DNA of 64,000 nucleotides from Acholoe squamosa (Eukaryota > Annelida > Polychaeta > Phyllodocida > Polynoidae). The position numbers and the translations under genes were made by a program. The notes under the pieces were generated by a model, which saw only the letters and a list, made by a program, of their open reading frames with translations, did not search any database and was not told where the DNA came from. Positions 8,552-26,371 of the stretch are shown here, one piece after another. The first letter of the stretch is position 1; each line of letters opens with the position of its first letter. The stretch is taken from the NCBI GenBank assembly GCA_949317995.1, contig OX439041.1, forward strand, positions 12,288,001 through 12,352,000. Direction: 5' to 3'.

Positions 8552-8715
8552 CACAAACATAACTTTTGATTTGTCTGGTTCCGTTGTATGCTTCACTCGC
8601 GTATGAATATTGGGCAGCGTAGGCACGCGTGCTACGCACTTGTGCCTACGCTGCCCAATATTCATACGCTCGTGAAGCATACGGCGGCCCAGACGCATCA
8701 AACGTTATGTTTGTG
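8552..8715. repeat. 164-bp near-perfect palindrome
   Basis: Arms of about 78 bp surround a short centre near 8633. The core ATTGGGCAGCGTAGGCAC is mirrored by GTGCCTACGCTGCCCAAT, and the outer ends CACAAACATAAC and GTTATGTTTGTG also pair. RNA or single-stranded DNA from this region would form one long hairpin. It is probably a small foldback element. Confidence 0.8.
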
Positions 8716-9184: not shown

Positions 9185-9188
9185 GCAC
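9185..9188 (+). repeat. Target-site duplication GCAC, left
   Basis: GCAC lies directly before the 5' LTR and is repeated directly after the 3' LTR (26372-26375). A 4-bp duplication is usual for Ty3/gypsy and retroviral integrases. Confidence 0.85.
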
Positions 9189-9866
9189 TGTCAGTAGACC
9201 GTTATAGGTATTGTACTTATCATATTTATTTTTCACCTTTGACTCTACCATGTAACCCAGTGTCCGAGTCTACCCACAAGCCAAGCCATACCCATAGACC
9301 AAAGGCTGGCGGTGTCAACTGCACTCAGTGACCCCGCCTCCTCCCACTGGAGGATACGCCGTCAATCACAAGCAGCCCACTGCATGCTGGAAATTCCTAG
9401 CAGACAATGTTTAGAAACAACTCCTCCTGCTGGAGGACATGCCCATTGATCATGAGCAGCTCACAGCATACCGGGAGTTCCCAGCAGCTATATTTAGAAC
9501 CACACTGAACTCTGTGAACCCCAGTGCTATGTTTGGGATCCCCCCTACATACCTGCACTGGAGTTCCCCAGTTACTATATTTAGCTCACCTGATACTATT
9601 TTTAGGATGAGCTGGGTGAGCAGCTCCTACTACAAATACCTGTGGAGGGAGCAGCTCATTCATCTTTCCACCTTCATACTTCATACCTCACACACTCACG
9701 TGAGATCAAGGCCTTTGGCTCAAGGGCTAGGCTTGGACACTGTTGGGCACCTTTATACTGTATCACCATCTATACCTCGTGGACTTCTATGAATAAAGTG
9801 GATATCAAACTGGATTCCTGATTCGTCTGTATTCATCCTTATTCATCATTTACGGACTCGTTGACA
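9189..9866 (+). repeat. 5' LTR
   Basis: 678 bp, TG...CA, with the terminal inverted repeat TGTCA/TGACA. A TATA-like TTTATA (9752-9757) lies about 40 bp before the polyadenylation signal AATAAA (9792-9797), so R probably starts near 9780. The U3 part holds an imperfect tandem duplication of about 82 bp (9338-9419 and 9421-9501). It differs from the 3' LTR at two places (CCGAG/CTGAG near 9264 and CATTC/CACTC near 9660). Confidence 0.95.
9439..9792 (+). other. 117-codon open frame inside the LTR
   Basis: An ATG-initiated frame of 117 codons lies inside U3 and is repeated in the 3' LTR (25944-26297), with one amino-acid difference (I/T). It has no recognisable domain. Since the two LTRs were identical at insertion, conservation between them is no evidence for coding. 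It may be chance; LTR-encoded proteins exist in some retroviruses. Confidence 0.2.
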
Positions 9867-9867
9867 A

Positions 9868-9885
9868 TGGTGGAAAACCCTCACG
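9868..9885 (+). other. Candidate primer-binding site
   Basis: It begins with TGG one base after the 5' LTR (TGGTGGAAAACCC...), as expected for pairing with the CCA end of a tRNA. I cannot name the tRNA from the sequence alone. Confidence 0.55.
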
Positions 9886-9917
9886 TATCATCCCACAGTT
9901 ACCACCTCTCATGAGCC

Positions 9918-12900
9918 ATGGACAACAGTGAGACCCTACCAAAGGAGCCAGCCCCACAACGTATCCCTACATCTCCAAACAGAGATCAGCAAGAAGCCAC
10001 CAGTACACAGTACACCACCCCGATAGACTCCTCGCCAGACGCGCTCCAGCTGGACCCAGTGCTGCCAGCCCATAGACGCACACATAAACAAACACCTGTA
10101 AGTTCAAATACCTTACCCTTTTCATCTACTATAGTAGACACCAACACAGGTGCACCCACCAGTACACCAGCAGGAGCCCCACCACCAGGTTTAAACCTCA
10201 CCCTACCTGGTTATTCACCCTCAGAATCACCACCTCTGAGATTAGGTGGTCTTCAAAGTACCACATACAGCACGCCTGAAAATCAATCACCAGGTTACCT
10301 CCACCTAGACAGCCATCTAGAGGAAAGATCCAATAGCCTGCAGGAAGCCCTGGAAGCTGCTGGCCGATCACCCTCACCCAGTAGTGATTCTGACCCACAG
10401 GGCGCACCTGACCTAAGTTGGGACAACCTTACTGTACCGGACATCCAAGCCCACCCATCAGTAGCAGACAATTACTGGAGGAGCAGGCTAGACTCAGCAA
10501 TCCACAGGTGGAGAGAAAACAGACTCAACACAGGACGTGCACAACAGATACCAACCGGAGCTACACCGAGCTACCAGTGTGGTGAGAGTCCCTCTGTTTT
10601 TCTAGACAGAATAAACCGTATTCTAGAAGAGCAGTGGCAAGAAAACTCCAATCCCACCAATCTGCTAAGGCCGCACCAAAACCCACAGCCTGATAGCAAC
10701 CCACCTGGAGGAAACCCTAGGCCTTACTACTCCTACTCTACCTCTGAAGAAGACAAGGCGACACCTCCAGCACCAAATTCATCCCTGAGCACGCCTCCAA
10801 GAGCCAGATCCTTTGAAAGGCCATACCCCACCCATAGACCCAGGAGAAGAGTGCAATCATCCTCCCCTCAAAGGCCAAATACACCTGTATTTTACAGACT
10901 TCAAAGAAGCTTGGACTCTGCAGCTAGAAGAGGCGACCTTGTGGCCACTACTCCCATACTACACAGAAACAGTCACTTCCCCGCCCATTTACAAACAGAA
11001 TCCACCTCTGAAGAAGACACAGAAGTAACCTTCCCCCACCTGCACAGAGCACCTGCCTACCCAAACATGGCCACTGCAGCTCCACCTCCAGAATACAACC
11101 AGGATGACATGACGAGGAACATAGTCAGAGAATGCACCCAGGCAGTCAATGACTCCCTCTCCAACCTATTAACAGGACAAATGAACTTATTGTCCGCTGA
11201 AATGAAAAGGATTGGAGACGACTCCTCCTGCCAACTGTCAAGAATAAATGACAGGTTGAATGACATGGACACTTGGAAATCGCACCTGGAGAATGACATT
11301 GGCCAAATACAAAGAAGAGCAGCTCAGGACAACGCTGATGTACTGAGAAGGTCTGAAATAGCGTCAGCCAATCTGTCTGACAGAATCAACAGAAATATTG
11401 ATGGAATGAGATCTGAAATATTCAGGGCCATTGATAGGACAAGAACACCTACCAGCCAAGGCCAAAACAGCCTTTTCTCACCCACCAACACTAGGCTACC
11501 CCCTTCAGGCCAACCTTCACAGGTTATGAGCACCTCTACCAGAATGCCGACATCTGTACCGGTGGGATACAGGCTCAGCCCCCCAAGCCTTTTCCAAAAT
11601 ACAACCCGAATGATAGCGACAGGTGCCACGCCCACCCAACAAGGCGCGACACATGCAGGTCTTGGTAGTTCAGCCACAACCCACCAGATGGCGCCCTCTA
11701 CCACTCGTCCATCACCGGTAGCCGCCACATCACTTTCAGGCAGTGTTTACAACCATGTATACATACCCCACCAGGCACACACGCCCTACAACAACCCTAT
11801 ACCAATGTATGGTTTGTTTACAAACACTCCACCTGCCCAAGCAGCTGCCCACCAGCCTGCAGCTCAGTCCACACCAATGATACCAAATCTAGGACAATCC
11901 AATTTCTCCGCTCCTACTGGATACAGAAGTTTTGAACCTGAGCGACTCACATCTGCTCAATTAAGCTGTTTTAACAAGCCAGAACCCTTTGACAAACCCT
12001 CGCCCTACAGGTCTGCAGCCAGATTCCTGGCAGAATTCAAATTCTATATAAGAAATGCATACCCCCGCAGTCCAACAATGCTTGCATCCTGTATGTATAC
12101 CTTTTTAAAGGGCAGAGCAGCACAATGGTTTTTCACAAACATTTTTGACAAACCAATCATGTATGACACTGAGGCAGTCTATACCGCCTTCCTCAGCAGA
12201 TTCAACCAGCCTGACCCTGCCACAATAATCAAAGGATATAGAAACAGAAAGCAGCAACCCAAAGAGACTGTGGAGGAATACATAGCAGATATGACCTTAT
12301 TGCTATCCAACAGCAACCTGGATGAATCTGTACAAGTGGACTATCTCATAAATGGCCTCAAAGATGAAATAAAAAATGTTGTACTTTCAGACAGCCCCAA
12401 AAGCATTAGGGAAGCCGAGACTGCAGCATTAAAACAAGAATTGGTCATGGAAGCAGCCAAAGCAGCCCATGCCTCAAACCAATCTTTAGACTTGTGCGCC
12501 ATGAACTATAATAACTACAATGGGCAAAGGAACAACAACAATAACAGATCCAGGAAGGACCAGTACAATAACAACAGTTATAACAACAAGCCCCCTGGAA
12601 ATGGCAATAATAAGCAGTATGACGACAAACCTAAGTCAGGATACAACCAAAATCAACAAGGTTATAACAACTCCAGATCCGGCTCAAACAGCAGATCAAG
12701 CTCCAAAAACAGATATCAGTCGCCAGGCAGGAGCAAATCTCAGGAAGGAAACAAAAGCAGGTCCAAATCCAGCGACACAAGAAATAACTTTGTTTTCATC
12801 CCTGTTGCCTCCACCCCCACCAACACCCGCCAGGTGTCCTTCCAGAAACTACTGGTCCCAGCAGATTTCCCAATCCCTGATGATTGGACCCAGCAACAAA

Positions 12901-13019
12901 AGAAATCCAGGGACCCAACACCAGGCAGAAATGACAACAAAAAGACAGGAGACAACCATCCTGACAACCAACCTCCTGATTCTGGACAAGGAGAACACTA
13001 CAATGACAATATTGAATAG
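9918..13019 (+). CDS. gag: Gag polyprotein
   Basis: It is 1,033 aa, with its ATG in a strong context (GCCATGG). An out-of-frame ATG at 9911 opens a 6-codon uORF ending inside gag. Residues 1-390 are Pro/Ser-rich and low in complexity, with repeated TSEED motifs. Residues about 400-510 look like a coiled coil. Residues about 684-845 match the retrotransposon Gag capsid-type domain, with landmarks FDKPSPYRSAARFLAEF, GRAAQWFF and ETVEEYIADM. The C-terminus (about 865-980) is Asn-, Arg- and Ser-rich and basic. It has no CCHC zinc knuckle, so nucleic-acid binding is probably done by this basic tail. Gag would form the particle shell and package RNA. It ends in UAG, after which the same frame stays open into pol. 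Confidence 0.93.
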   Translation: MDNSETLPKEPAPQRIPTSPNRDQQEATSTQYTTPIDSSPDALQLDPVLPAHRRTHKQTPVSSNTLPFSSTIVDTNTGAPTSTPAGAPPPGLNLTLPGYSPSESPPLRLGGLQSTTYSTPENQSPGYLHLDSHLEERSNSLQEALEAAGRSPSPSSDSDPQGAPDLSWDNLTVPDIQAHPSVADNYWRSRLDSAIHRWRENRLNTGRAQQIPTGATPSYQCGESPSVFLDRINRILEEQWQENSNPTNLLRPHQNPQPDSNPPGGNPRPYYSYSTSEEDKATPPAPNSSLSTPPRARSFERPYPTHRPRRRVQSSSPQRPNTPVFYRLQRSLDSAARRGDLVATTPILHRNSHFPAHLQTESTSEEDTEVTFPHLHRAPAYPNMATAAPPPEYNQDDMTRNIVRECTQAVNDSLSNLLTGQMNLLSAEMKRIGDDSSCQLSRINDRLNDMDTWKSHLENDIGQIQRRAAQDNADVLRRSEIASANLSDRINRNIDGMRSEIFRAIDRTRTPTSQGQNSLFSPTNTRLPPSGQPSQVMSTSTRMPTSVPVGYRLSPPSLFQNTTRMIATGATPTQQGATHAGLGSSATTHQMAPSTTRPSPVAATSLSGSVYNHVYIPHQAHTPYNNPIPMYGLFTNTPPAQAAAHQPAAQSTPMIPNLGQSNFSAPTGYRSFEPERLTSAQLSCFNKPEPFDKPSPYRSAARFLAEFKFYIRNAYPRSPTMLASCMYTFLKGRAAQWFFTNIFDKPIMYDTEAVYTAFLSRFNQPDPATIIKGYRNRKQQPKETVEEYIADMTLLLSNSNLDESVQVDYLINGLKDEIKNVVLSDSPKSIREAETAALKQELVMEAAKAAHASNQSLDLCAMNYNNYNGQRNNNNNRSRKDQYNNNSYNNKPPGNGNNKQYDDKPKSGYNQNQQGYNNSRSGSNSRSSSKNRYQSPGRSKSQEGNKSRSKSSDTRNNFVFIPVASTPTNTRQVSFQKLLVPADFPIPDDWTQQQKKSRDPTPGRNDNKKTGDNHPDNQPPDSGQGEHYNDNIE

Positions 13020-13060
13020 GACACAGGGGAGGGCCACCATGCATCTTACAGCCCCGCCCC
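13017..13060 (+). promoter_or_regulatory. Candidate stop-codon readthrough signal between gag and pol
   Basis: The gag stop TAG (13017-13019) is followed by G, a 6-nt spacer, then GGGG (13026-13029) and GGGC (13031-13034). These can pair with CCCC (13057-13060) and GCCC (13051-13054). Gammaretroviruses use a UAG followed by a structured RNA to make Gag-Pol by readthrough. Here gag and pol share one frame and pol is open directly from the stop. The pairing is visible; its function is inferred. Confidence 0.6.
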
Positions 13061-16000
13061 CACCTTGGACAACAGAATTGGAACGTCCCCCACATGCCAT
13101 ATTTCACACATGAATGATGGAGCAGAATTAAATTCAGCAGAACAACAGAACCACGACCCCCAGCCTGTGAATTGTGACGAAGACTCCTCATCAGACAGTG
13201 AGGACCTCTATGAGAACCAGAACAAGAGAATTTCCACCCTCCAATTAAAAGTCGAGACCAGTAAGTATGGGCAGCAAGGTAAGACCTCTTACATTAATAC
13301 TGAATTGACTAAAGGCGCAGTTAATGTTGATATCAATGGCAGTTCTTACAGAGCCCTTATAGACTCTGGAGCCTCCCTTTCCTTTATCAGCCAGAAAATG
13401 GCAAACAAAATCATATCAACCCCCAATTTCAGACATGGTAGGAGATCTCGCATGGTTATCCTACTAGCTGATAAATCCTCAGTTCAGGTCAACAACTCAA
13501 TCACCATAACCTTCCTAATCAATAACACAGAGTTTAAAACAAGACTACATGTTGTTCCAAAGCTAAATCACCCCATAATTCTTGGCGTAAATTTTATGAC
13601 CAAATATAGGGCCAAAATTTCCTTTGGGACCAAGTCCCCTTCACCACACTTCATTAGAGCAGCCAAAGGCCTAACCATGCCACCAAATTCCGAATCCACA
13701 TTCAATGCAATCGTCATAGGACCTGATTCCTTAATAGGTAAAACAGGCATCACAGAAAATGTTGACACGACATTACCGGTACTAATGAAACACGCCCTTG
13801 TTGAACCAAGGTCAACAAGAAAAATCATACCGGTAACAGTGGCCAACCCAAATGATTTTTCCATCAATATCAAAAAGCACATGAACCTAGGCATTTTTGC
13901 ACTTAACAATCTAAACAAAGCCATTCCCATTGGAAAACTGAACAGCCAACACTCCCTCAACAGCATAATCTCCGACAAAGACATGCTCCCCATCAATTGT
14001 GGAGATGATCCCCTAGATCAGCTACCCAAAGGGGACGACCCTCTAAAATATACAATATGTGACAAGCTCACTGAGGCCCAAAAACAACAAATCAAAAACA
14101 TTGTTGAATCAAATAGAGAGGCTTTTGTATTAAATGAAAGTGCTATAGGATTAAATGTTGAAAATGAGGTCAAATTAGAATTAATCCCTGATTTCAAACC
14201 CTGCAACAGACCATCCTACAGAATGTCACCCAAGAAAGAGATTTTTCAAAGAGAGCTGTTAGATAAACATTTACAGCAAGGTGTCATTGAAGAATGCACC
14301 AAACCCTGTGAGTGGAACTCCCCAGCTTTCTTAGTACCCAAACCCCAGGGAGACAGGTCTGTGGCCTCAGGATGGAGAATAGTCGTGGATTATAGATGGG
14401 TTAACCAAAACCTAAAATCTTTTTCCTACTCCTTCCCCAGAGCAGACGACCTCATGCAACAAGTTGGCAGAACAGGTGCTAAATATTTTTCCAAATTGGA
14501 TGTATACAGCGCCTACCATCAAATTCCTCTAGCTAAAGAATCAAGGCCTTTAACAACTTTCTCCGCCAATGGCACAAGATATATGGCCAAAGTATTACCC
14601 ATGGGTTTAAAAACTTCTGGTTTGTCATTCATGAATGTAATGGAACAATTGCTCATGAAGTGCAAATACAGAAATGCAGTAGCCTATGTGGATGATGTGG
14701 CCATATACAGCCCCACATGGGAAAGGTACCTGCAAGACCTAGATGAAGTGCTAAAACTTTTCATCAAAGGAAACATCAAATTAAAGTCAGAAAAATGTGA
14801 ATTTGGCACCACCAAAATGGAATTCTTAGGTTTTACCTTAGATCAACACGGCATCTCACCTTCCCCAGACAAAATCTCACCGGTTAAAACCTTCCCAGCA
14901 CCTAAAAACATCCACGACCTTAGGTGTTTCAATGGAATGGCACAATTCTATAAGAGATTCATTAGAGGTTTTGCCCATATAATGAAGCCCTTATATGAAG
15001 CCACAAAGGGTACCTTCAAATGGACCACTCAATGCCAAACAGCCTTTGAAAAAATCAAAGCATCAATTTGCACTGAGGCAATCCTAAAATTCCCAGACTA
15101 TAACAAACCCTTTATCATCTTCACAGACTCCAGCAATTTCAGCTTAGGAGCAGTTATTACACAGGTAGATGAACATGGTTTTTATAGACCCATTGAATTC
15201 TCTGGGAGAGGTCTAACACCTCAGGAAACCAGATATGGAATAACTGACAAAGAGCTACTTGGGATAATCTTCGCTGTCAAAAAGTTCCACCATTATGTGG
15301 ACGGCACTCACTTCAAAGTATATTCAGATCACACTGCCCTAGTCTCCCTCTTCAACAAAAAGGAGAATATCACCAATGGGAGATTGGCAAGATGGATAGA
15401 TACTGTTATGTCCTATGATTTTGAAGTGAAATACCTACAAGGTAGAGCCAATTTAGTGGCAGATTGCCTGTCCAGAAGAAAATATCCCCCTGGCTCTGAT
15501 GATCCAATACCAATTAGATCACAAGGAAAAATTATCCTCCCACCAAAGAGGGTACAATTTTCAGATATATCCATGACAAAGGTTTTCAGATCAGACGACC
15601 CAATCCCCAATAATCCCATCTGTTTGGGACCTCCTAGATCAATATTAAAAGGAGGCAAAATTTGGGGAAGCACAAATAAACCACCAAAAGGCGTCATAGC
15701 AAGAAAGGGCACCCCAGAAAGGCAGCAAGGTGTGAATCCTGACCTGTGTGTACTCACTCGAGCACAGTCCCAGACCCAGGATGACACACCTCCAGCAGCC
15801 AGCCAATCAGCGCCCAGTAAAAAGACCCGCCCACTCAAGCCTAAGTGCAGCAGTCCTCGCCCCAGAGGCAGGCCCGCCAAATCTAGGTCACCTAGGGTCT
15901 CCATCAAAGCTGCAAACGCCAAGAGAGCTAAGCTCTCCCGCCGTGTGCTACCTCTAGCTGAAAGGGCAATTCAGGAAATCTGTAAACACCAATCCCTAAC

Positions 16001-17504
16001 ACCTTCTAGAGAAACACTGATTAAAAGCCAAAAAGAAGACCTTTTTGCATCCTCCATGGCAAACTACATCGAAAAAGGTAGCCTGCCACACGACTCAGGA
16101 TTAATGAATCAAATACTACGTAACCACGACCAATTCATCTTACTGGATGAAGTCCTCTTTAGAATTACTGATACCAACTTGGGCAAAACCTTAGAGCCCA
16201 CACTGCAAATTGTAATTCCAGAAAAGTGGACAGACTCTTTAGTGGAAGCAACCCATTGCTCTCCCCTAGGTGGACACCTAGGTCCAGTCAAAACCTATAC
16301 AGCCATAAGGGCTAGGTATTACTGGAGATCAATGTTTAAAGAAGTTTTTGACTTCTGCGGTACTTGCCACACATGCCTGACCACCAAAAAGAGACCCAAA
16401 AACCTGAAAACTCCAATGAAACTACGTGACCCAGTACTCACAGCATACTCTCATGTCACCATGGACACAATAGGCCCTTTTTCCAAGGCCGCTGATGGCT
16501 CTCACTACATACATGTGGTGACCGACCATGCCACCAGGCATGTAACTGCCTGGACAAGTGAAGAAAATACGGCTGCAATTGTAGCACTTGGTTTCTTCCA
16601 AAGAGTCATATGTATCCATGGCACTCCCTCAGTACTGAACACAGATAATGCCCAGCAATACGTCTCAAAATTATTCAAATATTTCTGCGAAAAGTTCGGC
16701 ATTAAACATGTGACAGGAAGTGCACATTGGTCTAGGTCTCAAGGTCTCTGTGAGCGCCAACATCAAACCATAGAATCATCCCTCAGAGCCTTTGTATCAA
16801 AATCACAAAAACACTGGTCAACCTTCCTGCAAGCTGTAGTCTTCAGTATTAATAATACTATAAGCAGCGCCTTAGGCTACTCACCAAATTTGTTAGTCTT
16901 TGGCAAGCAGACACACCTACCAACTGAAGCAGCTTTGTCCCTGATTAAAGCTGAAAAAGACTCAAGCACCAGGGAGAAAATTATGACCAGCCTACTACAG
17001 TTTAGGGATGATATTCAAATGAAAGCTGCAGAAAACATGATCTCTGCTCACAAAAAGATGAAAGCCAGACATGACACTTCAGCAGAACTCAGCTCATATA
17101 ACACAGGCCAATTGGTATATTTACATATACCCACCCTACTAGTCAAAAGTACATCAAAAAAGTTGCAACCCACATACTCAGGCCCCTACATCATAATGAG
17201 GATGACTTCACCAGTTACAGCTATTCTAAAGAGGCTACAAGATGGAAAAGTACTGAAGAAATCAGTACATGTATCAAGGCTGAGGAGACCAATCACAAGA
17301 GCTAGCGCCAAAGCCATCATAAAAAGGCTACAATCAGGGCCCACAAGCTCACTTCACGACCCCGACCAAGACGACCCCTCCAATGTGAGTCTCACCACTC
17401 ACAAAACAAAGAAAAAGAGAGGAAGGCCAGCCAAAAAGGGAATAATCTCCTTCAGCCCCATGCCCTCCAGAAAATCAAGAAAAATTTCTAAGCGTCCATT
17501 ATAG
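13020..17504 (+). CDS. pol: Pol polyprotein: protease, reverse transcriptase, RNase H, integrase
   Basis: The frame is continuous with gag. No ATG occurs before 13110, which supports readthrough rather than independent initiation. Numbering from 13065: protease motif LIDSGAS at about 98-104; RT about 385-600 with LDVYSAYHQ and YVDD at 541-544; RNase H about 680-800 (FTDSS, YSDHTAL); a Pro/Arg-rich spacer with an AT-hook-like PRGRPAK; integrase zinc-binding H-H-C-C region about 1062-1110; catalytic D1134, D1194 and E1230 with exactly 35 residues between the last two; a GPY/F-like module about 1370-1405 (SGPYIIMRM). A second AT-hook, KKKRGRPAKK, lies near the C-terminus. The enzymes process the polyprotein, copy RNA to DNA and insert it. 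No disabling changes are visible. Confidence 0.95.
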   Translation, partial: DTGEGHHASYSPAPTLDNRIGTSPTCHISHMNDGAELNSAEQQNHDPQPVNCDEDSSSDSEDLYENQNKRISTLQLKVETSKYGQQGKTSYINTELTKGAVNVDINGSSYRALIDSGASLSFISQKMANKIISTPNFRHGRRSRMVILLADKSSVQVNNSITITFLINNTEFKTRLHVVPKLNHPIILGVNFMTKYRAKISFGTKSPSPHFIRAAKGLTMPPNSESTFNAIVIGPDSLIGKTGITENVDTTLPVLMKHALVEPRSTRKIIPVTVANPNDFSINIKKHMNLGIFALNNLNKAIPIGKLNSQHSLNSIISDKDMLPINCGDDPLDQLPKGDDPLKYTICDKLTEAQKQQIKNIVESNREAFVLNESAIGLNVENEVKLELIPDFKPCNRPSYRMSPKKEIFQRELLDKHLQQGVIEECTKPCEWNSPAFLVPKPQGDRSVASGWRIVVDYRWVNQNLKSFSYSFPRADDLMQQVGRTGAKYFSKLDVYSAYHQIPLAKESRPLTTFSANGTRYMAKVLPMGLKTSGLSFMNVMEQLLMKCKYRNAVAYVDDVAIYSPTWERYLQDLDEVLKLFIKGNIKLKSEKCEFGTTKMEFLGFTLDQHGISPSPDKISPVKTFPAPKNIHDLRCFNGMAQFYKRFIRGFAHIMKPLYEATKGTFKWTTQCQTAFEKIKASICTEAILKFPDYNKPFIIFTDSSNFSLGAVITQVDEHGFYRPIEFSGRGLTPQETRYGITDKELLGIIFAVKKFHHYVDGTHFKVYSDHTALVSLFNKKENITNGRLARWIDTVMSYDFEVKYLQGRANLVADCLSRRKYPPGSDDPIPIRSQGKIILPPKRVQFSDISMTKVFRSDDPIPNNPICLGPPRSILKGGKIWGSTNKPPKGVIARKGTPERQQGVNPDLCVLTRAQSQTQDDTPPAASQSAPSKKTRPLKPKCSSPRPRGRPAKSRSPRVSIKAANAKRAKLSRRVLPLAERAIQEICKHQSLTPSRETLIKSQKEDLFASSMANYIEKGSLPHDSGLMNQILRNHDQFILLDEVLFRITDTNLGKTLEPTLQIVIPEKWTDSLVEATHCSPLGGHLGPVKTYTAIRARYYWRSMFKEVFDFCGTCHTCLTTKKRPKNLKTPMKLRDPVLTAYSHVTMDTIGPFSKAADGSHYIHVVTDHATRHVTAWTSEENTAAIVALGFFQRVICIHGTPSVLNTDNAQQYVSKLFKYFCEKFGIKHVTGSAHWSRSQGLCERQHQTIESSLRAFVSKSQKHWSTFLQAVVFSINNTISSALGYSPNLLVFGKQTHLPTEAALSLIKAEKDSSTREKIMTSLLQFRDDIQMKAAENMISAHKKMKARHDTSAELSSYNTGQLVYLHIPTLLVKSTSKKLQPTYSGPYIIMRMTSPVTAILKRLQDGKVLKKSVHVSRLRRPITRASAKAIIKRLQSGPTSSLHDPDQDDPSNVSLTTHKTKKKRGRPAKKGIISFSPMPSRKSRKISKRPL

Positions 17505-18291
17505 ATCATAAGACGTTGTGTCAAACACCAAGCACCCATATAAACGACCCTCTTTTAATCCCCACAGGCGCCACGCGCCCCAACCAAATTAATCAACCAT
17601 TAATACACCAACCACTTAAACACACTGACAGCAACAGTCACAGACCAACGCCCAAACCATTTATACTAACAGCCATAAAAATTCCTATGCATCCAAAATC
17701 AACACCACCTTGATTAACTGTATATACACACACCTACCCTTTCTAAGTGGAACGCCAAACACTGGCAAATGGATTATCAAATAATTAGGTTAGGTTACAC
17801 ACGCCACATACCGACCGCCCAAGGCAGCGCTGTATCCTCGGTTTGTGTATAAACTTCAATACACACATGCGACGGCTTGTTACCACTTCAAGACCACTAT
17901 TTCCAATGATAAACCTATTGTAGGAAGATGGACCTCTGACACCCACACCCCATGTTTACACCGCTGTCTCTGCCAACCCTTAAGTGCCGTGGTGGCGCAT
18001 ATACAAATCAATAACACACTGCCCTCAAGGTTTTTAAAAGCCACAGGGACGCCATAGCAACCATATCACCTTGGCCAGGGATAAAACACCCCCCGCCAAG
18101 CTTCCCAATATGCTATCTTTAGACAATATCTCACCACCAACCAATCCAGGCCAGGATAACCCTAATTTGCATATGGAACCGTACAACCCCACTTGCATCC
18201 ACCAATAATATTTGGCCTACGCCTCTTTCAGGGCAAGACATACCACCTATGGGAAATCTCAGACTGAGAAGTAGCCTAACTCAGTCTCAGG
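17505..18291 (+). other. Non-coding stretch between pol and the leader exon
   Basis: No supported ORF; the short frames here are unremarkable. It is A/C-rich on the plus strand like the rest of the element. At its right end an 8-bp inverted repeat (AGACTGAG 18261-18268, CTCAGTCT 18280-18287) sits just before the TATA-like box. Confidence 0.5.
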
Positions 18292-18322
18292 TTTATAAGC
18301 GCTTGCCCACCCACATCTGATC
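18261..18322 (+). promoter_or_regulatory. Candidate internal promoter
   Basis: A TATA-like box TTTATAAG (18292-18299) is followed by a plausible start region about 25-30 bp downstream and by a strong-Kozak ATG at 18388. An inverted repeat AGACTGAG/CTCAGTCT flanks the upstream side. Internal promoters are known in foamy viruses. Here it is inferred from motifs only. Confidence 0.35.
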
Positions 18323-18387
18323 ACAACACAACCCACAACCAATACCACCACACCTTAAGCACGGCAACAAGTGTCTGGGAAGGGACC

Positions 18388-18416
18388 ATGGCAGACCCAT
18401 CATGCAACCAGCCCAG
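18388..18416 (+). CDS. Candidate leader coding exon for env and accessory ORF
   Basis: An ATG in an excellent context (GGGACCATGG) opens 9 codons plus 2 nt and ends at a good donor, CCCAG|GTAGGA (GT at 18417). The exon leaves phase 2. The acceptor before the 178-aa ORF (AG at 18700-18701) and the acceptor inside the start of env (AG at 19393-19394) both supply the single missing base in frame. A common leader exon with alternative splicing would explain why env lacks its own ATG. RNA evidence would settle it. Confidence 0.5.
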
Positions 18417-18690
18417 GTAGGATTATCTTATGGGTCTATTTTAGCATTTAGGATTTTTAACAGTCGTTCTAGCATTGTACATGATAGTACTTTTATTATC
18501 ATGGTGCCCAGGTACCCCTATTAACCAATGGCGGTGTGAGCCTTAAGTGTGTGTAAAATGTGGAAGAACTTCTCCACTATCCTATAATTTTTAACATTGA
18601 TAATCCAATTTACTAAACCTCTTCAGCCAAGCAAATTCCCCACCTTACCTCTCCCCCCATTCACAGCCCACTTAGACCCTTTTTCCTTTT

Positions 18691-19227
18691 ATGACTTACA
18701 GCCTGGACCCACCGGCAAATAAGCACGGCCCAAATGCTACATGGACCATACACAGCCTCCTTGGACCACATGGGATCAGGAGTGATCTCATGGATCCTTT
18801 TGAAATTAGGAGCATAATCATGGAACAGCAACACCTCATCACCTTCCTCGCCCAGGAAGATATTAAACATTACCTCAGCAGCCCTGTGCTAAGACAGGAG
18901 CTGGACATGAGCAATCACTCCATAGCAGCAACCATAAAAGCCTTCATGGTCGCTGTAGCTGGGGATAATCCCCGCCGGCCTCCATGGGGCAGGTTTAACC
19001 ATAGATCTGCATCATACATAGCACTCTTATGTGCTCGCACACTTCTAGCGTCAGAACAGCCCCTCAGGGACTTACCCCGCCAATACTCCAGAATTGGACG
19101 CGAACTGGCCATAAGGAATACAGCCAGCCTGGTATTCCAGTTTGCTGTTTTCGAGATAAACAGATTCCATGCTCAAGCTCGTGTGCCGCCCCTGACGGTG
19201 ACAACAGGCACCAGTCCATCTGCATAA
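18691..19227 (+). CDS. Accessory ORF, 178 aa, unknown
   Basis: This intact ORF lies between pol and env. It has an in-frame ATG at 18691, but a polypyrimidine tract and acceptor (TTTTTCC...TTACAG, AG at 18700-18701) also allow splicing from the leader exon in the same frame. The protein looks mostly helical, with no signal peptide or clear membrane segment. Visible landmarks are an LITFLAQEDIKHYLSSPVLRQ stretch (about 49-69), PPWGRFNHRSASYIALLCARTL (about 96-117) and a C-terminal SLVFQFAVFEINRF. I do not recognise the family. In position it matches accessory genes of complex retroviruses. Confidence 0.55.
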   Translation: MTYSLDPPANKHGPNATWTIHSLLGPHGIRSDLMDPFEIRSIIMEQQHLITFLAQEDIKHYLSSPVLRQELDMSNHSIAATIKAFMVAVAGDNPRRPPWGRFNHRSASYIALLCARTLLASEQPLRDLPRQYSRIGRELAIRNTASLVFQFAVFEINRFHAQARVPPLTVTTGTSPSA

Positions 19228-19332
19228 AACCTTTCATGTGACAACAACCCTACCACCCACAGAATCCCCGACCTTTGTAAATACTTGACCACACTAACAT
19301 CCCATTTGTGACTAAGCTATTGCTATTTTTAA
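19228..19332 (+). other. Spacer before env acceptor
   Basis: A short A/T/C-rich segment; together with 19333-19394 it would be the end of the intron that leads to env. The T-rich tract at 19370-19392 is a good polypyrimidine tract. Confidence 0.45.
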
Positions 19333-22104
19333 GTGAACCCCACCATCAAATTTCAAAAATCCTCAAAATTTCTCAATTTTTCTCATTTTTCTAGAGCAGC
19401 AGCCATCCTAGCAGTCTGTATATTTTTACATCTGCTCCTCGGCTGCACCTCAACATCAAATACCAATCTGAACACCATCTTCAGACCCAACTATGGCGCA
19501 CTGTTTACCAAGTTACCCCAAACATTACTAGCCAACTACATGGACTATCCATTGACCTTCAGCCTCAACTTGACCTTTGACCAGAACTTAAGTCAGCCAG
19601 AACTGCTCAGCCCACTCATCGCCACTGATGCACCCCAATACATTAAGCACACAGCCCATGCCCTAGATAACATGATACAAAGCCTATTCTCCAAGTCAAA
19701 AACAACACTAGAAACCTTGTCAAAATTAATTTCCCCATCAAACGTCAGACAAGCCAGAAACGCCCCAGGCCAAGTCATTGGTGACATTTTAAGAGCTTCA
19801 ATAGGCCTCGGTACTCAACCAGAAATTGATATTTTGAATTCTGAAATGTCTGACCTGGATAAAAAGTTAGCCACCAAAATGCACGTGGTAGAATTAGCCA
19901 CACATTTCTTGTTAAATATTTCGGAATTTAATTACAATTCTGTCAACATCTTCTCAAAATTCCAAAACGACACTGATGATGCTCTATCTTTCATTTCCGG
20001 AAAATTAGAGCACTTAAATTCAAACATCTCATCAATATTATTAAAATTAGAACTCCAATCCAGACAAGACACTTTCTACTCCATGTTATTCACAGCAGCA
20101 AATTCACAAATAGAATCTTTAATTGACCTCCAAAGCGACTTGGAAAATCTGCTTTTAACCATTAATAATCTACTTGAAGGCACCCTACCCCAGTCCATCA
20201 TCACAAAAGACGACCTCAGTTTAGGTTTAAACAATTTATCCAGCCTCCTGCACGAGGCACATCACGGCATTATTTTAGAAGGCCTACCCATAAGTTATTA
20301 TTATAAGCGCCGAGTACATGTGCACTGGAACCATAACTCGAGCCTACTAATAACCATACCAGTACCCATAACCAGAGGGGGAAGCACCTTTTCTATATTT
20401 AGGATAGAAACCTTCCCCGTGCCTTTCGACACCTCCGACACTAAGTCAGTAGGTCACACCCAGGTGGAGCCACTTCCCGGCTACTTGGCCATGTCCAGGA
20501 CCCACTCACACTACATACAGTTTACACAAGCTGACCTGGATATGTGTGACCTCGGCCACCTTATCAGCTGTAACCTACCCCTACCTCTGTTGTCGGCCAC
20601 ACACCCCACATGCACTCTATCCCTATTTTTAGACCTACCAGAGGCGATGCACCATACCTGCAGTTTTAAAGCACACATGGCAGCACCCACACCAAATCTT
20701 ATCCAACCCCTATCTCACAGCACCTTCCTATTAATAACCGACCATCCCACTTCCATGCTCCAATGCACAGATTCAGGCCAAGTCAAAATTAAAAATAGAG
20801 CATACTCAGTCATCTCAGTCCCATGTCTGTGCTCCATTAAAAATGCTGGCATGATTTTAACCAATTCTGATTTATCTTGCACCCAAAATTTCACGCTGGA
20901 GCCCATATCAAAGGCCTATTTCAACTTACCACTATGGCGACACTTTGGTCAACCTCCAGCCAATGTTTCCGGCATCACCATGGCAACCACATCCCAGACC
21001 CTTCACTTGCCCAATTTTGAAAAATTAAAACACCTACATAATCAAAAAATAGCACCACTTTTTCAAGACACCCTAACCCTTAAAAAGGCCGCACAGGGAC
21101 TTAAAGACCAATCAGCCCTCCTATCCACTAACTCCCTGATGCATCTAGGATATCACCTCCAGTTCTCACCCTGGATACATTTGGTATCACCCCTCCTGGC
21201 ACTACTTTGCTGCGCATTAACCCTTAAGAACCATCTTCGTGTCAATCAATTGGCGCGCTTTATCACACTAGTCTCAGCAACCCGAACACCCAAGATGGCT
21301 AATGCGGAGAGTTGGGATCGTTTTAAAGATCTGATACGCCAGGCTAACAAAAACTGGCCAGCTCCACAAACGACCCCAAACACAGATCTAGATTTTGTAC
21401 AGTCGCCTGACCGCTACCAGAACATGTTCACCTGGATTTTGATAGCAACCCTCCTATACATCACATGGAGTACCGCCAAGAGGTGCCTGCGACACTGGCC
21501 CTACTGCAAACAGGACAGCCACAGGACACCTTCAATTGTGGCCAAGATTCATGCTAACGGTCAAACCTTTGATTTCACCGTTGGCAAGATGATCTATGGA
21601 CAAAATCTCTGGGCCCCCACCATCACAGCCCCTAAGGTCTCCCCAGCTCGCCTTACGGCACCCCTGGGCAGACACCTGGATCTCCATTGGAAGTCTGACA
21701 TCAGGACAATAATCGGGGGACAAGTCCGACAGATCCCGCTGCAGCGCTATCCTCCGGTACCACTTCTATGGAGGATACCGCTGTACAGAATCTTAAAAGG
21801 AGCTCACCACATGACAGTGGTCATCTCCTCAGAAGGACAACCCGATTTTCAACTTGCCTCTAGTGACACTGACCCCGCCATACAACTACCTTGTGAGTCC
21901 TGGCCGGCTGATCGCCATGACTCCCCGGCTGAGCTCACAAAGTACACCCCACTCCGGCATCAGCCAAAGAAAGACAAATACATGTACAGGCAACCGGAGA
22001 TGATGCTCACACCACCCTCAACATCAACCAGCGGTAAGTTTCCATCAGAAACCTCTTTGATCCTCATGTGGGGATCAATTAACCGCCGGCCATCCCCCAT
22101 ATAA
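19333..22104 (+). CDS. env: Envelope-like fusion glycoprotein (F-type), spliced
   Basis: The open frame has 923 codons but no ATG before the signal peptide; it opens with GTG directly after a TAA. An acceptor preceded by a T-rich tract (AG at 19393-19394) lies just upstream of the codons for the hydrophobic AAAILAVCIFLHLLLG segment, so an upstream exon must provide the start. A basic cleavage-like site RQAR (139-142) precedes a Gly/Ala-rich, weakly hydrophobic stretch and a heptad-rich region with many N-glycosylation sites. A helical segment near 255-310 has the spacing seen in baculovirus F and errantivirus envelopes. Hydrophobic segments lie at about 613-633 and 698-714, followed by an unusually long C-terminal region of about 205 residues. 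The role would be membrane fusion. Family assignment rests on layout, not alignment. Confidence 0.75.
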   Translation: MNPTIKFQKSSKFLNFSHFSRAAAILAVCIFLHLLLGCTSTSNTNLNTIFRPNYGALFTKLPQTLLANYMDYPLTFSLNLTFDQNLSQPELLSPLIATDAPQYIKHTAHALDNMIQSLFSKSKTTLETLSKLISPSNVRQARNAPGQVIGDILRASIGLGTQPEIDILNSEMSDLDKKLATKMHVVELATHFLLNISEFNYNSVNIFSKFQNDTDDALSFISGKLEHLNSNISSILLKLELQSRQDTFYSMLFTAANSQIESLIDLQSDLENLLLTINNLLEGTLPQSIITKDDLSLGLNNLSSLLHEAHHGIILEGLPISYYYKRRVHVHWNHNSSLLITIPVPITRGGSTFSIFRIETFPVPFDTSDTKSVGHTQVEPLPGYLAMSRTHSHYIQFTQADLDMCDLGHLISCNLPLPLLSATHPTCTLSLFLDLPEAMHHTCSFKAHMAAPTPNLIQPLSHSTFLLITDHPTSMLQCTDSGQVKIKNRAYSVISVPCLCSIKNAGMILTNSDLSCTQNFTLEPISKAYFNLPLWRHFGQPPANVSGITMATTSQTLHLPNFEKLKHLHNQKIAPLFQDTLTLKKAAQGLKDQSALLSTNSLMHLGYHLQFSPWIHLVSPLLALLCCALTLKNHLRVNQLARFITLVSATRTPKMANAESWDRFKDLIRQANKNWPAPQTTPNTDLDFVQSPDRYQNMFTWILIATLLYITWSTAKRCLRHWPYCKQDSHRTPSIVAKIHANGQTFDFTVGKMIYGQNLWAPTITAPKVSPARLTAPLGRHLDLHWKSDIRTIIGGQVRQIPLQRYPPVPLLWRIPLYRILKGAHHMTVVISSEGQPDFQLASSDTDPAIQLPCESWPADRHDSPAELTKYTPLRHQPKKDKYMYRQPEMMLTPPSTSTSGKFPSETSLILMWGSINRRPSPI
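22034..22039 (+). other. Candidate splice donor near the end of env
   Basis: GTAAGT follows AGCG in the env frame, leaving phase 1. A strong acceptor (CTGTTTTTCAATACAG, AG at 23936-23937) lies 1.9 kb downstream and its exon would continue in an open frame to a stop at about 24065. The env C-terminus could therefore exist in two versions. This is inferred from consensus and phase. Confidence 0.4.
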
Positions 22105-23582
22105 CCTGGTAATGGACTCTCCCGGTCGCCCAATCCACCGGATAGCCCCATCTAACACCTTCATGTGGGGATCATACCCATCCTTAATAGCTCTAAAACC
22201 GACACCACCCACAATTAAAACCATTTTAACATCTCCAGTACCATAGCACAGTTTCGACCCACAACAACACGGTTATTTCGACTCACTGTGAAGGCCCACT
22301 GCACGATGAGACGTCGCCATCTTGTTTCTGACGTCGCGTCTGGTTCCCCGCCAAACGCTGCGTCAGAACGCCGGCGCTGCGTCTCACCACTGCCGTCGGC
22401 CTCCCCAACGTCAGATCTCTTTCATTTTTCCCACGTTGGCATGACAACTTAACGTCAGTCAGGACACCCGCAATCAATATCTGCGTCAAAACAATAACAT
22501 AAGCACGTGTTAGCAATATCACTAGACTTGTTTTCGACCCAAGTTAACAATAACAACCCGCATGAGAATTGAAAGCCCGCCCTTGCCAATTCAGAAGCCC
22601 AGAACAAACAACATAACTTCTAACTGGTGGTGGACTTTCAAATATATTATTGGAATAAAATCACAGCAAATCAGGCTCATGGCACATATGGTTATCACAG
22701 TTTTTCATCATATAATCACAGCATCAAATCACATCTCCGCATTAGGCCTGCCACCTTCCACAGCTAGTCCTTTTTCCTTTCTGTTTTCTTAAGCCGTCCT
22801 CATCTTTCACTTTTTCGGCACAGACACGCCACACCAAATCGCTCTCGCGTCTACCTCTGCAAAAAGCAATCCAAAACCCCCACTGTAAAAACCCACAATT
22901 CTAACAAATTCCAATTCCGATTCAAAATTCAAAAACAAGATTCAAATCTGTGAATAAAATTTTCAAACACATTCAGGCTAGCAACCGACTTAATCAAAAT
23001 TACACGTACCGGCCAAGTCATCAGAATACGACACAGGGCCCACTGGCCCCTCCCTCTGGGCCATCGGGTGGCCCATGGACCCGGTGACAAAGTACCGGTA
23101 CCTCCCCGATATGGACCCACACCAGGACAATCCTGAAACAAACCAAAAACACGGCGTCAGACCACCGGCACCACACCCAAATACACAAAACCACCCAAAA
23201 ATCGAAATCTTGTATCAGCACTTACCCGAATGTGCCCACCAGCACCAACAGCAGGAAGAGCATTCCTGAAGGCATCACCACGAGCTGCGCTCGCACAATC
23301 ATGGTTTCTCCGTGGTTTTTCGAGCCGCAAGTAAATCCAAAGTTATAGCTCTCCTTGCCGGTCATAAGTCGCTTTCTGATCCCAAAATAGCTCCTGCTCC
23401 CTTTATAGCAAGACCCACCGCGGGAGCATAAAGTTAATTTTCGGACCCTATTTTTCGAAAAGCGCACCACCAAAACTCAAAATTTCATCACACCAAACCC
23501 ACCTTAGGATCCAAAATCACCTAATCCAAAGTTGAGACATCCCTTACACATAACCGACTGAGACCATAGCAAGTCTACACCA
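22105..23582 (+). other. 3' region of the element after env
   Basis: No convincing long ORF; a 76-codon frame at 22562-22792 has no features. Between 22309 and 22490 there are several CGTCA/TGACG half-sites. An acceptor-like CACTTTTTCGGCACAG ends at 22823. A/C-rich composition continues, so this belongs to the element and is not host flank. Confidence 0.5.
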
Positions 23583-23588
23583 TTGACC

Positions 23589-24065
23589 ATGCCGTTTGAC
23601 CATGCCCTTACACGAACGCTGGACAAACGCCAGCTCAGTGGCGCCAGCCAATGTTTATCGCTTGAACTAAATAAGAAAAGATCGGAAAAGATCCCCATGC
23701 AGTGGCGCTACCCGTGCCGCGCAGCAGAACTAACCTGGACCCTGGATATTCCAGTTTCCCGCTCACATTTGGCCATGAGTCTACACCGGCCCAGTGACAC
23801 TGCACATCAATATGCACTGCCTAATTCACTGCCTTACCTGTCAATTTGGTATTTTTGTTGGTCGCCTTGTGATCCATGCACTATGATCGACCCTAAAACT
23901 AAAAATCCCCCCTCTCTTGTTCTGTTTTTCAATACAGAGGCCAACGACCTAATCGAGGAGGCGGAGACCGTATTGACGGGCCAGCAGGAGTTTCCAGCAG
24001 CAGGCCAGGCACGCCCATTCCCACCGGCCTGCCCCATTGGAGCACACGAGTCTGCTCTCCAATAG
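23589..24065 (+). CDS. Hypothetical 3' ORF 1 or env 3' exon
   Basis: Open frame of about 158 codons from the ATG at 23589. The whole ORF has no recognised domain. Its last part, from 23938 onward, lies directly after a strong acceptor and is acidic (ANDLIEEAETV). That part may be the real coding piece, as a 3' exon joined to an upstream donor. Weak evidence for the full ORF, better for the tail as an exon. Confidence 0.3.
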   Translation: MPFDHALTRTLDKRQLSGASQCLSLELNKKRSEKIPMQWRYPCRAAELTWTLDIPVSRSHLAMSLHRPSDTAHQYALPNSLPYLSIWYFCWSPCDPCTMIDPKTKNPPSLVLFFNTEANDLIEEAETVLTGQQEFPAAGQARPFPPACPIGAHESALQ

Positions 24066-24112
24066 GGCCACCTACTAGATTCGCCACCCTGAGAACAAAT
24101 TGTCCCCACCTA

Positions 24113-24499
24113 ATGTACAGCTACAGCTGCCCATGCAGTATCAACAAAGACAATAGACCAGAAACCTTCAAAACAATTGGCTCGACCCAGGTCTGGAGAC
24201 CCCTACCCAAAATTAACCAAGCTTCATCTGAGGAGGATAGTGACTCTAGCACCTCCCTCTCAGCAGAACCAATAGACATGGACCCTGCATACAGTTCCGA
24301 TCTGAATTTACAGCCTGACTCAGGCAAGCCTAGCAGAATGCACTTCAGCAAAATCGTAAACTTTGTCCCCAACACCAAAAAATCGAAATCCAGGAGAAGA
24401 CCCTCACTAGGTCGCTCCCTCAACCCAAACGTCTTTAACCACCAAGACCCACCACCAAAGGGTCTTGCAAACCAAAGCCGCCATAGAAGGAGAAAATAA
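24113..24499 (+). CDS. Hypothetical 3' ORF 2, acidic-basic, 128 aa
   Basis: ATG at 24113. It has a Ser/Asp/Glu-rich stretch (SSEEDSDSSTS, about 39-49) that echoes the TSEED motifs of Gag, then two strongly basic clusters (KKSKSRRR about 87-94; SRHRRRK at the end) that could be nuclear-localisation or RNA-binding signals. A small basic protein encoded 3' of env recalls Rev/Rex-like regulators, but I see no homology and do not claim that function. Confidence 0.35.
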   Translation: MYSYSCPCSINKDNRPETFKTIGSTQVWRPLPKINQASSEEDSDSSTSLSAEPIDMDPAYSSDLNLQPDSGKPSRMHFSKIVNFVPNTKKSKSRRRPSLGRSLNPNVFNHQDPPPKGLANQSRHRRRK

Positions 24500-25693
24500 T
24501 TTCAATAACCATCCCTTATTTATTTCATTTATTTTTGGAACTGTCTTTAAAATTATGGACTAAAAGTGTAGAGACACACTTCACTCACCGACCGCCCATG
24601 GACACTATGAACACTGACTCAGTCAGCCTAGTCAACTGATTTTTAAAGCCAGTTTTTCTTGTTGTATAGGGCTATGATACATAACCATGAAAACACGCTG
24701 CATTTTTACATTTATTTTCCTTTATAAGAACATTATGAAGAACACAAGCCAGGCAGCAGGTTTTTGTGATCTTAAGATGCCATAAAGTTCTTTTTCTTTT
24801 TCACACTGTACCTTTTCAAACCCAACCATGTCAAATATTTATGGGTTTTAGTTAGTTTATATTTTTTCTAAAAATTTTACAAGGAACCCCTGGCAACCAG
24901 TATCTTTGCAGGATCAACTGAGATCCAAACTAAATATCAGCCAGAGCCTCCATTTACTTTTGTATTAACCTCGTCCTTTTTCAGCAAATGATAACCCCAG
25001 GTAGACTGAAGGCTAAACATGCTAAATTTTCCATTGACTAAGACAAACCTTCTACAAAATTAACAGAAACTTCTACAGATAAATAAAAGACCAAAAATCC
25101 AAAATTTTTTTTTTTTTTTTTTTAGAAAATTCCTTAAACATATCACCTAAAAGCCTTCAGACTCCCTAAGCCTTACCAGTATTATAAGGAATGATTGATC
25201 GACTTGCCAGTCATCAATTACCTTACCTCTGTTTTTATTTATTATATTGTATTGTATATTGGCTCAAGACCTAAATAATAAGTGCCTACCGGTACTGAAA
25301 CAAACTTCAGTATTAACGTGTCTACCTCAAGGTCTGCCTTAAAGCCAATAACTGCATGTTTTAGGATAGTTTTTATTCCTCTATCCTTGTGTGAACTTTA
25401 GTACTAGATAAATAATCCAGCCCTTGTATGCTACCACGACCTGAACTTTTCACATTCTTCTTGTCAAAATTACAAACAACACCTCTTTGGCACAGTTTCG
25501 TTTTGTACTGTTTATAAATTATTCATGTTCAATCAAAAACCAATATTAAATATCTCCTTAATACTGTAGACTTTCAACTTAAATGATAAGATGTAATACC
25601 TATTATTACACACCAAACATATTGTCAGTAGACCTTTTCTCACGAACTTCCTCCTTAAAACCTCGCGTGGAATCGAGTAGGAATGTGGGGATT
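24500..25693 (+). other. 3' untranslated part of the element
   Basis: A/T-rich sequence without ORFs, reaching the 3' LTR. A poly-T run lies at 25107-25124. The few purines just before the LTR (GGAATGTGGGGATT, 25680-25693) are a weak candidate polypurine tract. Confidence 0.5.
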
Positions 25694-26371
25694 TGTCAGT
25701 AGACCGTTATAGGTATTGTACTTATCATATTTATTTTTCACCTTTGACTCTACCATGTAACCCAGTGTCTGAGTCTACCCACAAGCCAAGCCATACCCAT
25801 AGACCAAAGGCTGGCGGTGTCAACTGCACTCAGTGACCCCGCCTCCTCCCACTGGAGGATACGCCGTCAATCACAAGCAGCCCACTGCATGCTGGAAATT
25901 CCTAGCAGACAATGTTTAGAAACAACTCCTCCTGCTGGAGGACATGCCCATTGATCATGAGCAGCTCACAGCATACCGGGAGTTCCCAGCAGCTATATTT
26001 AGAACCACACTGAACTCTGTGAACCCCAGTGCTATGTTTGGGATCCCCCCTACATACCTGCACTGGAGTTCCCCAGTTACTATATTTAGCTCACCTGATA
26101 CTATTTTTAGGATGAGCTGGGTGAGCAGCTCCTACTACAAATACCTGTGGAGGGAGCAGCTCACTCATCTTTCCACCTTCATACTTCATACCTCACACAC
26201 TCACGTGAGATCAAGGCCTTTGGCTCAAGGGCTAGGCTTGGACACTGTTGGGCACCTTTATACTGTATCACCATCTATACCTCGTGGACTTCTATGAATA
26301 AAGTGGATATCAAACTGGATTCCTGATTCGTCTGTATTCATCCTTATTCATCATTTACGGACTCGTTGACA
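25694..26371 (+). repeat. 3' LTR
   Basis: 678 bp, identical to the 5' LTR except for two substitutions. It carries the same AATAAA signal (26297-26302) and U3 tandem duplication, and is followed by GCAC (26372-26375), the right target duplication. Confidence 0.95.

Follow-up and report, generated by a model that had tools for sequence, protein, structure and literature searches.

The locus described here raises the question of why an otherwise uniform family of mobile elements should carry one segment that differs strongly from copy to copy. It lies in the genome of the polynoid annelid Acholoe squamosa (assembly GCA_949317995.1), on contig OX439041.1 at positions 12,288,001 to 12,352,000 of the forward strand. 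We refer to this whole stretch of 64,000 nucleotides as the window and number its positions from 1. Within it, positions 9189-26371 hold a retroelement of 17,183 bp bounded by long terminal repeats (LTRs). We interpret it as a recently active, env-bearing endogenous retrovirus (ERV) of the Ty3 type with a complex gene plan and an element-borne, multi-allelic antisense gene of which rare versions are favoured, a reading to which we assign a probability of roughly two in three.

An earlier interpretation made from the DNA letters (the sequence-only reading) had described the element as a young insertion. This was borne out, as the two LTRs differ at 2 of 678 positions and the target-site duplication (TSD) GCAC stands on both sides. 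A search of the 1.48-Gb genome (63 contigs) with the LTR gave 1501 candidates, of which the 40 scored were all 99-100% identical. Many further copies were thereby found, and those compared have the layout in common. We compared the post-pol part of 14 other copies with that of the window copy (15 copies in all), and the gag-pol part of 10 of these 14. The LTR pairs are identical (0 of 678 mismatches) in all ten of the 14 copies from which both ends were fetched; therefore, these ten insertions are very recent. As to whether the 3' third might be a nested insertion or host DNA, it aligns with the 14 other copies, the hypervariable cassette (Table 1) excepted.

In 300-bp windows along the post-pol part, the mean pairwise difference is 0.04-3.7%, and mostly below 3%, outside the cassette region and reaches 11.5% at 22480, 38.9% at 22780, 35.0% at 23080 and 9.0% at 23380; the last post-pol window is also high, inflated by flanking DNA. 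The length of the cassette is nevertheless steady, with 1139-1182 nt for 22400-23550, and gag, pol, ORF3 and env of the fetched copies contain no comparably divergent blocks. Pairwise identity in the cassette is not linked to that of the distant backbone (r = 0.02 for 17380-19300, 0.04 for env and 0.06 for 24000-25690), whereas the segments 17380-19300, env, 22105-22560 and 24000-25690 intercorrelate at 0.60-0.77; the LTR segment was set aside here because it took in columns trailing the alignment. For example, the window copy and copy L009 share 98.0% identity in the cassette and 96.2% in env, whereas copies L018 and L021 are 99.5% identical in env and 65.3% in the cassette. No single master copy could account for the ten insertions whose LTR pairs match exactly, since diverged cassettes occur among them; in the recent past, several source elements that differed in their cassettes were active. 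Two local groupings of copies were also seen. At G000 C15:49184713-49218385, three same-strand LTRs are spaced at about 16.5 kb, which probably reflects two elements in tandem with one common LTR, and the cassettes of its copies L021 and L022 are 99.8% identical. At G000 C3:85.43-85.74 Mb, four element copies with related cassette alleles lie within 300 kb, and the ORF3 region of two of them is 87-88% identical to the window copy.

The minus strand of the cassette carries the same gene plan from copy to copy, namely a TATA box, an ATG and three predicted exons. TATAAA precedes the ATG by 97-127 bp in 14 copies. A script found the predicted gene in 14 of the 15 copies, and in the remaining one (L016) it was read by eye, with one motif codon differing. 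Intron 1 spans 93-102 nt and ends in TTCAG or TTTAG. The second donor sits 11-16 nt past the stop codon, with a second acceptor about 150 nt further on in nine representative copies, and both introns have GT...AG ends in all nine. The predicted product of 62-63 residues reads M-I-[IV]..., MP[ST]G, a hydrophobic stretch, W-x3-G-x2-P and C-x4-GP-x-D-x2-EGG-x-SGPC; G50 and P51 each vary once, and the cysteines and the EGG-x-SGPC motif are invariant. Among alleles, synonymous divergence (dS) is 1.54 and nonsynonymous divergence (dN) 0.29, giving a dN/dS of 0.19 as compared with 1.06 and 1.81 in the shifted frames. The coding parts are free of gaps, as opposed to 5-25% gaps in the introns and presumed untranslated regions (UTRs), as judged from eight copies with boundaries off by two bases. 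The N-terminus of the miniprotein is probably cytoplasmic; the chain would cross the membrane once, and the two invariant cysteines would close a loop on the outer side. Such a cysteine-held surface loop, variable among invariant positions, would suit recognition. Two alleles scanned against Pfam gave no match.

The sense strand was examined for the layout that the sequence-only reading had likened to that of complex retroviruses, and the gag, pol and env-like open reading frames (ORFs) claimed to be intact proved so, gag and pol being open and the main env exon being open in 11 of 15 copies (broken in L011, L014, L019 and L021). The match of gag to Retrotrans_gag scores 23.7 bits, just under the curated cut-off of 24.1, and that to Ty3_capsid 21.6, below the cut-off of 29.1. 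Internal stops are absent from pol in 10 of 11 copies, the window copy included, and the profile matches to its reverse transcriptase (RT) and RNase H have E values of 5e-33 to 2e-29. By sequence, the best match of pol among solved structures is a Ty3 Gag-Pol chain. The order of protease, RT, RNase H and integrase is that of Ty3/Metaviridae, as are LTRs of the TG...CA form (starting with TGTCAG and finishing with TTGACA) together with a TSD within the range of 4-6 bp. Troyka elements (CG...CG, 3-bp TSD according to the accessible text of PMC12440569) were excluded by the TG...CA ends and the 4-bp TSD. A protein search returned 134 relatives of pol, and a tree was built from the window pol and those 108 of the best 120 that passed a coverage filter, which P0004 failed. 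There, P0002, P0003, P0005 and P0006, which come from public contigs and resemble the window pol at 45-68% identity, group with it in a single clade (SH-aLRT, the Shimodaira-Hasegawa-like approximate likelihood ratio test, 100; stem 0.54 changes per column).

The env-like protein is envelope-like by its architecture and one relative. It has a signal-peptide-like start, RxxR followed by a fusion-peptide-like segment, a pair of hydrophobic segments and, lastly, a long tail; these functional labels were assigned by eye from motifs that we presume to be diagnostic. P0001, the sole relative found, is 33% identical over 80% and shares the RxxR, the following fusion-peptide-like segment, many cysteines, the first hydrophobic anchor and the second about 75 residues on. 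Positions 21300-22104 encode about 280 residues past the first anchor that include the second hydrophobic segment, an arrangement also present in P0001. No envelope family in Pfam matched, and neither env nor ORF3 was found in the viral contigs in which they were looked for. With P0001 as a query, 51 env loci in the genome were scored, of which 42 are stop-free within the match; with P0006, 32 of 33 scored pol loci are stop-free. As regards other element families in the genome, these two queries yielded loci at only 33-35% (P0001) and 43% (P0006) identity.

The extra ORFs between pol and env and 3' of env, which other family members might have lacked, are present in the 14 other copies and appear to be under purifying selection. 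ORF3 is open in all 15 copies with a ratio of nonsynonymous to synonymous differences (pN/pS) of 0.15, env has 0.16 (counted from 19333) and ORF6, which 14 of 15 copies keep open downstream of the acceptor at 23938, has 0.29, as against 1.2 or more in the shifted frames of each. The contrast for ORF6 is weaker in parts, with 0.25 versus 2.25 and 0.83 from 24113 and 0.37 versus 0.91 and 11.7 for 23939-24112. In eight further copies the ORF3 region was present throughout (DNA 87-97% identical to the window copy) and ORF3 was intact in six, with a pN/pS of 0.03-0.23 relative to the window copy. One extra ORF did not stand: 23583-24065 is a chance frame because it has stops in all 14 other copies and a pN/pS of 0.80. 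Neither PDB nor Pfam yielded a match to ORF3 at E values up to 10. A WGR motif in it had brought to mind what we took to be BH-type anti-apoptotic proteins, and this resemblance was dropped for want of a match. ORF6 matched no family in a profile search; its acidic and arginine/lysine-rich stretches recall, on our assumption, the nuclear regulatory proteins of complex retroviruses.

The phase-compatible splice signals noted earlier also stood up to comparison among copies. The predicted leader exon, ATGAGCCATGGACAACA/GTGAGA in the gag leader, is identical in 11 of 11 copies. It ends in phase 2, and so do the acceptors before 18702 (ORF3), 19395 (env) and 23938 (ORF6), each preceded by a polypyrimidine tract. 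Indels around these acceptors fall upstream, with none in the first codons downstream. In unspliced RNA, the ATG at 9911 begins a six-codon upstream ORF that ends at once and overlaps the gag start, and the second ATG at 9918 opens gag. Alternative env acceptors exist at nearby AGs, one of which, by eye, would suit the gag ATG. One leader exon serving three downstream ORFs is thus predicted, a plan like that of complex retroviruses. Because the extra ORFs are under purifying selection, the acceptors are conserved and in phase, and young copies are many, a young, env-bearing element with a complex-retrovirus-like layout and predicted splicing is supported. The earlier description was incomplete in that the antisense gene had been missed.

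Several observations weigh against our reading. The antisense gene is a prediction from sequence alone, and when the protein collection was searched with an alignment of eight alleles, the miniprotein had no homologue there up to E = 10. Under a strict polypyrimidine filter, the second acceptor was recovered in only three of the nine copies; for the others it was assessed by eye from the aligned sequences. AATAAA or ATTAAA occurs within 2.5 kb in only two of the nine. A coding role for exon 3 was rejected, as its frames disagree between copies and none is conserved. Copy L022 has lost the usual start codon. Nucleotide identity in exons 1 and 2 (63.5 and 64.9%) is hardly higher than in intron 1 (62.5%); it is the codon pattern, the placing of gaps and the splice sites that carry the coding case. 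Closer to the cassette the picture is less clear-cut, since 22105-22560 correlates with it at r = 0.28, and 23460-23990 shows low correlations throughout (0.10-0.31 with the backbone, 0.19 with the cassette), so that exchange seems to reach into the right near flank. The evenness of motif types among the 100 sites listed of the 354 described below is not significant in an Ewens-Watterson test on raw types (P 0.19), and the P of 0.006 obtained after grouping near-identical types by hand is only a hint. Furthermore, pN/pS was computed over all copy pairs, whose values are not independent, and the compared copies were picked by LTR match, so that young copies are over-sampled.

We propose diversity-maintaining selection because exchange alone does not explain why only the cassette is old. 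The alternative to be taken most seriously is that no special selection acts and that old families swap a recombination-hotspot segment with the young family, the diversity being a by-product. Older backbones (87-89% identical to the window copy) do carry related alleles, and recombination is evident. However, gag, pol, ORF3 and env of the fetched copies are without such divergent blocks, and the commonest motif types are rather even, with 25 types among the 100 sites listed of 354 and none represented more than 12 times. We regard this alternative as rather unlikely and the cassette gene as probably under selection that maintains its diversity.

An independent promoter and introns in antisense would also fit a host gene, and the cassettes could stem from repeated capture of members of a diverse family of host genes. 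A 29-base degenerate exon-2 pattern matched the genome 354 times and its reversed control 0 times, and a 28-mer from the conserved flank had 261 exact matches (control 0). In the complete listings for four contigs (C1-C4), the motif lies 386-493 bp away on the same strand at 58 of 64 flank matches, and one of the six motif-less matches is L009, where the gene is present with a variant motif. Conversely, 58 of the 93 motif sites there have the exact flank and 35 do not; these 93 of the 354 sites are the ones that the flank test covered, which limits the case against capture. On the same contigs, 15 of 18 scored pol loci have the antisense motif at 9.85-9.99 kb. Twelve unusual or clustered motif sites, where a host locus seemed most probable, were fetched (1.1 kb each). 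Every one of the 12 is enclosed by element flanks, as judged from about 200-300 bp on each side, and for eight the ORF3 region, at a distance of about 4 kb, is also element DNA; no free-standing host copy of the cassette was found among them. The donor and a TATA-like site are present in all 12, and the strict exon-1 pattern failed in seven. The gene is broken in L053 by a stop in exon 2 and in L054 in the frame of exon 1. Ten more stretches located by the LTR gave two with the cassette, both with the gene, two matching other element parts and six matching nothing; the listed LTR in those without a cassette is probably a 5' or solo LTR. Since the nine representative alleles also occupy the same place between homologous flanks, we give repeated host capture a small chance.

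A further alternative is that this is an ordinary env-bearing Ty3 element among the widespread envelope-carrying ERVs of metazoans, with nothing new about it. Here, an RxxR and a fusion-peptide-like segment were recognized by eye as in the F-type Env of errantiviruses, a search for Pfam envelope families gave no match, and splicing of env is predicted from a conserved donor and acceptor in phase. According to the accessible text of PMC12992720, the ZAM and Beagle subclades of Drosophila join env by splicing to a short exon that precedes gag, and these errantiviruses or insect ERVs resemble the present element in their Ty3-type pol, signal peptide, RxxR and fusion-peptide-like and transmembrane segments. 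Unlike errantiviruses, the present element has 17 kb, two further leader-compatible ORFs, an antisense gene and a second hydrophobic segment in the env tail. In the plant LTR retrotransposons Grande, RIRE2 and Retand, the parts of PMC7264820 and PMC11963269 available to us describe additional antisense ORFs in a long region between pol and the 3' LTR, and Grande gene23 is likewise an antisense gene with its own promoter. This Retand-type trait is present here as a split two-exon frame; however, Retand ORFs carry a TRP28 domain in these texts, as opposed to no Pfam match for our two alleles, and neither text contains the word "intron" or, in the parts available to us, any allele classes, whereas for our env-bearing element we predict a membrane miniprotein encoded by a spliced gene. 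Among complex retroviruses, the human T-lymphotropic viruses have spliced antisense genes, HBZ and APH, close to the 3' end (available text of PMC10186651). In contrast to HBZ, there described as a nuclear basic leucine zipper (bZIP) protein expressed from the 3' LTR, the present gene has a predicted internal TATA box near its ATG, would encode a membrane miniprotein and is hypervariable between copies. Among the titles and abstracts listed from the literature available to us, there was no spliced, membrane-bound, multi-allelic antisense gene in an animal LTR element, nor were there three phased ORFs combined with a gene of this kind, and we give the ordinary-element account an even smaller chance of being right. 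Finally, an accidental antisense frame in a fast-evolving untranslated or regulatory segment, for which the purely predicted status of the gene and the similar exon and intron 1 identities could be cited, is very improbable in view of a dN/dS of 0.19 in that one of three frames, gap-free coding parts, splice dinucleotides in 9/9 copies, invariant cysteines and EGG-x-SGPC, and 354 motif matches against 0.

Table 1. Features of the element in window coordinates; a slash marks a splice junction
Feature	Position	Strand	Details
5' LTR	9189..9866	+	678 bp, TG...CA; TSD GCAC just before, 9185-9188
Primer-binding-site position	9867..9886	+	ATGGTGGAAAACCCTCACGT; assigned by position only
Predicted leader exon	9911..9927	+	17 nt: ATG, four further codons and 2 nt; donor GTGAGA at 9928
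gag	9918..13019	+	1033 aa; open in 10/11 copies, window included
pol frame	13020..17504	+	protease, RT, RNase H, H2C2 and integrase matches
ORF3 (pol-env)	18702..19227	+	about 180 aa; exon from acceptor TTTTATGACTTACAG/C; own ATG at 18691
Main env-like exon	19395..22104	+	acceptor TTTTCTAG/A in 15/15 copies
Hypervariable cassette	22700..23370		approximate bounds; 8 allele classes in 15 copies (our grouping)
Antisense predicted exon 3	22760..22856	-	after acceptor TTTTTGCAG; probably 3' UTR
Antisense exon 2	23010..23132	-	..LLWVxxGxxPxxCHxVxGPxDGPEGGxSGPC..; stop 23023-23021; donor GTACGT at 23009
Antisense exon 1, coding part	23226..23302	-	77 nt; MIVRA..MPSG.. and hydrophobic segment; donor GT[AG]AGT
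Antisense TATA box	23402..23407	-	then conserved block 23389-23368
ORF6 (3')	23938..24499	+	about 190 aa; acceptor TTTTTCAATACAG/A; acidic stretch, then arginine/lysine-rich stretches
Polypurine tract	25680..25693	+	GGAATGTGGGGATT
3' LTR	25694..26371	+	TSD GCAC directly after

Some further features were observed in the element and elsewhere in the window. A 117-aa ORF within the LTR is open in 15/15 copies, which is uninformative because the LTRs hardly vary. Directly upstream of the element, a 52-bp inverted repeat lies at 8581-8687 (88% complementary, 3 bp loop). A minus-strand frame at 3-3752 (1250 aa) reaches the window edge and contains many C2H2 zinc-finger motifs by eye, a host gene near the element, with 39-bp tandem repeats by the window edge. 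The stretches 42644-46564 and 49459-53162 look as if duplicated: each starts with a 134-bp satellite, in about 19 and 16 copies respectively, and continues with a 38-bp array, in about 36 and 40 copies. Adjoining 77-78-bp tandem arrays at 55106-55306 and 55359-55632 are, by eye, apparently partial reverse complements.

Under our reading, Gag and Pol would be made from full-length RNA, and Env, ORF3 and ORF6 each from an RNA joining the leader exon with its ATG at 9911 to a downstream acceptor of the same phase. The antisense gene would be independent, with its own promoter, and encode the membrane miniprotein; it could keep its introns because they lie opposite the genomic RNA strand. Many old allele classes would pass between backbones that are otherwise almost identical. 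The simplest route would be template switching between RNAs packaged together, which is suggested because the flanks are conserved. The classes may persist through an advantage of rare versions, for instance in type-specific exclusion between elements or escape from host recognition. It is a tentative and somewhat doubtful possibility that the gene is an ERV-borne polymorphic recognition locus, in which old, exchanged antisense surface miniproteins would tell like from unlike or evade the host and be favoured when rare, much as at self-incompatibility or allorecognition loci, here inside a mobile element.

What antisense genes do in retrotransposons is described as largely unknown in the available text of PMC7264820. 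The present case would be an intron-bearing gene that survives retrotransposition by its antisense placement. If its diversity is selected, a mobile element with hundreds of copies in the genome would hold a polymorphism that is both balanced and recombining, and type-specific ERV interference or host recognition of ERVs would become directly testable.

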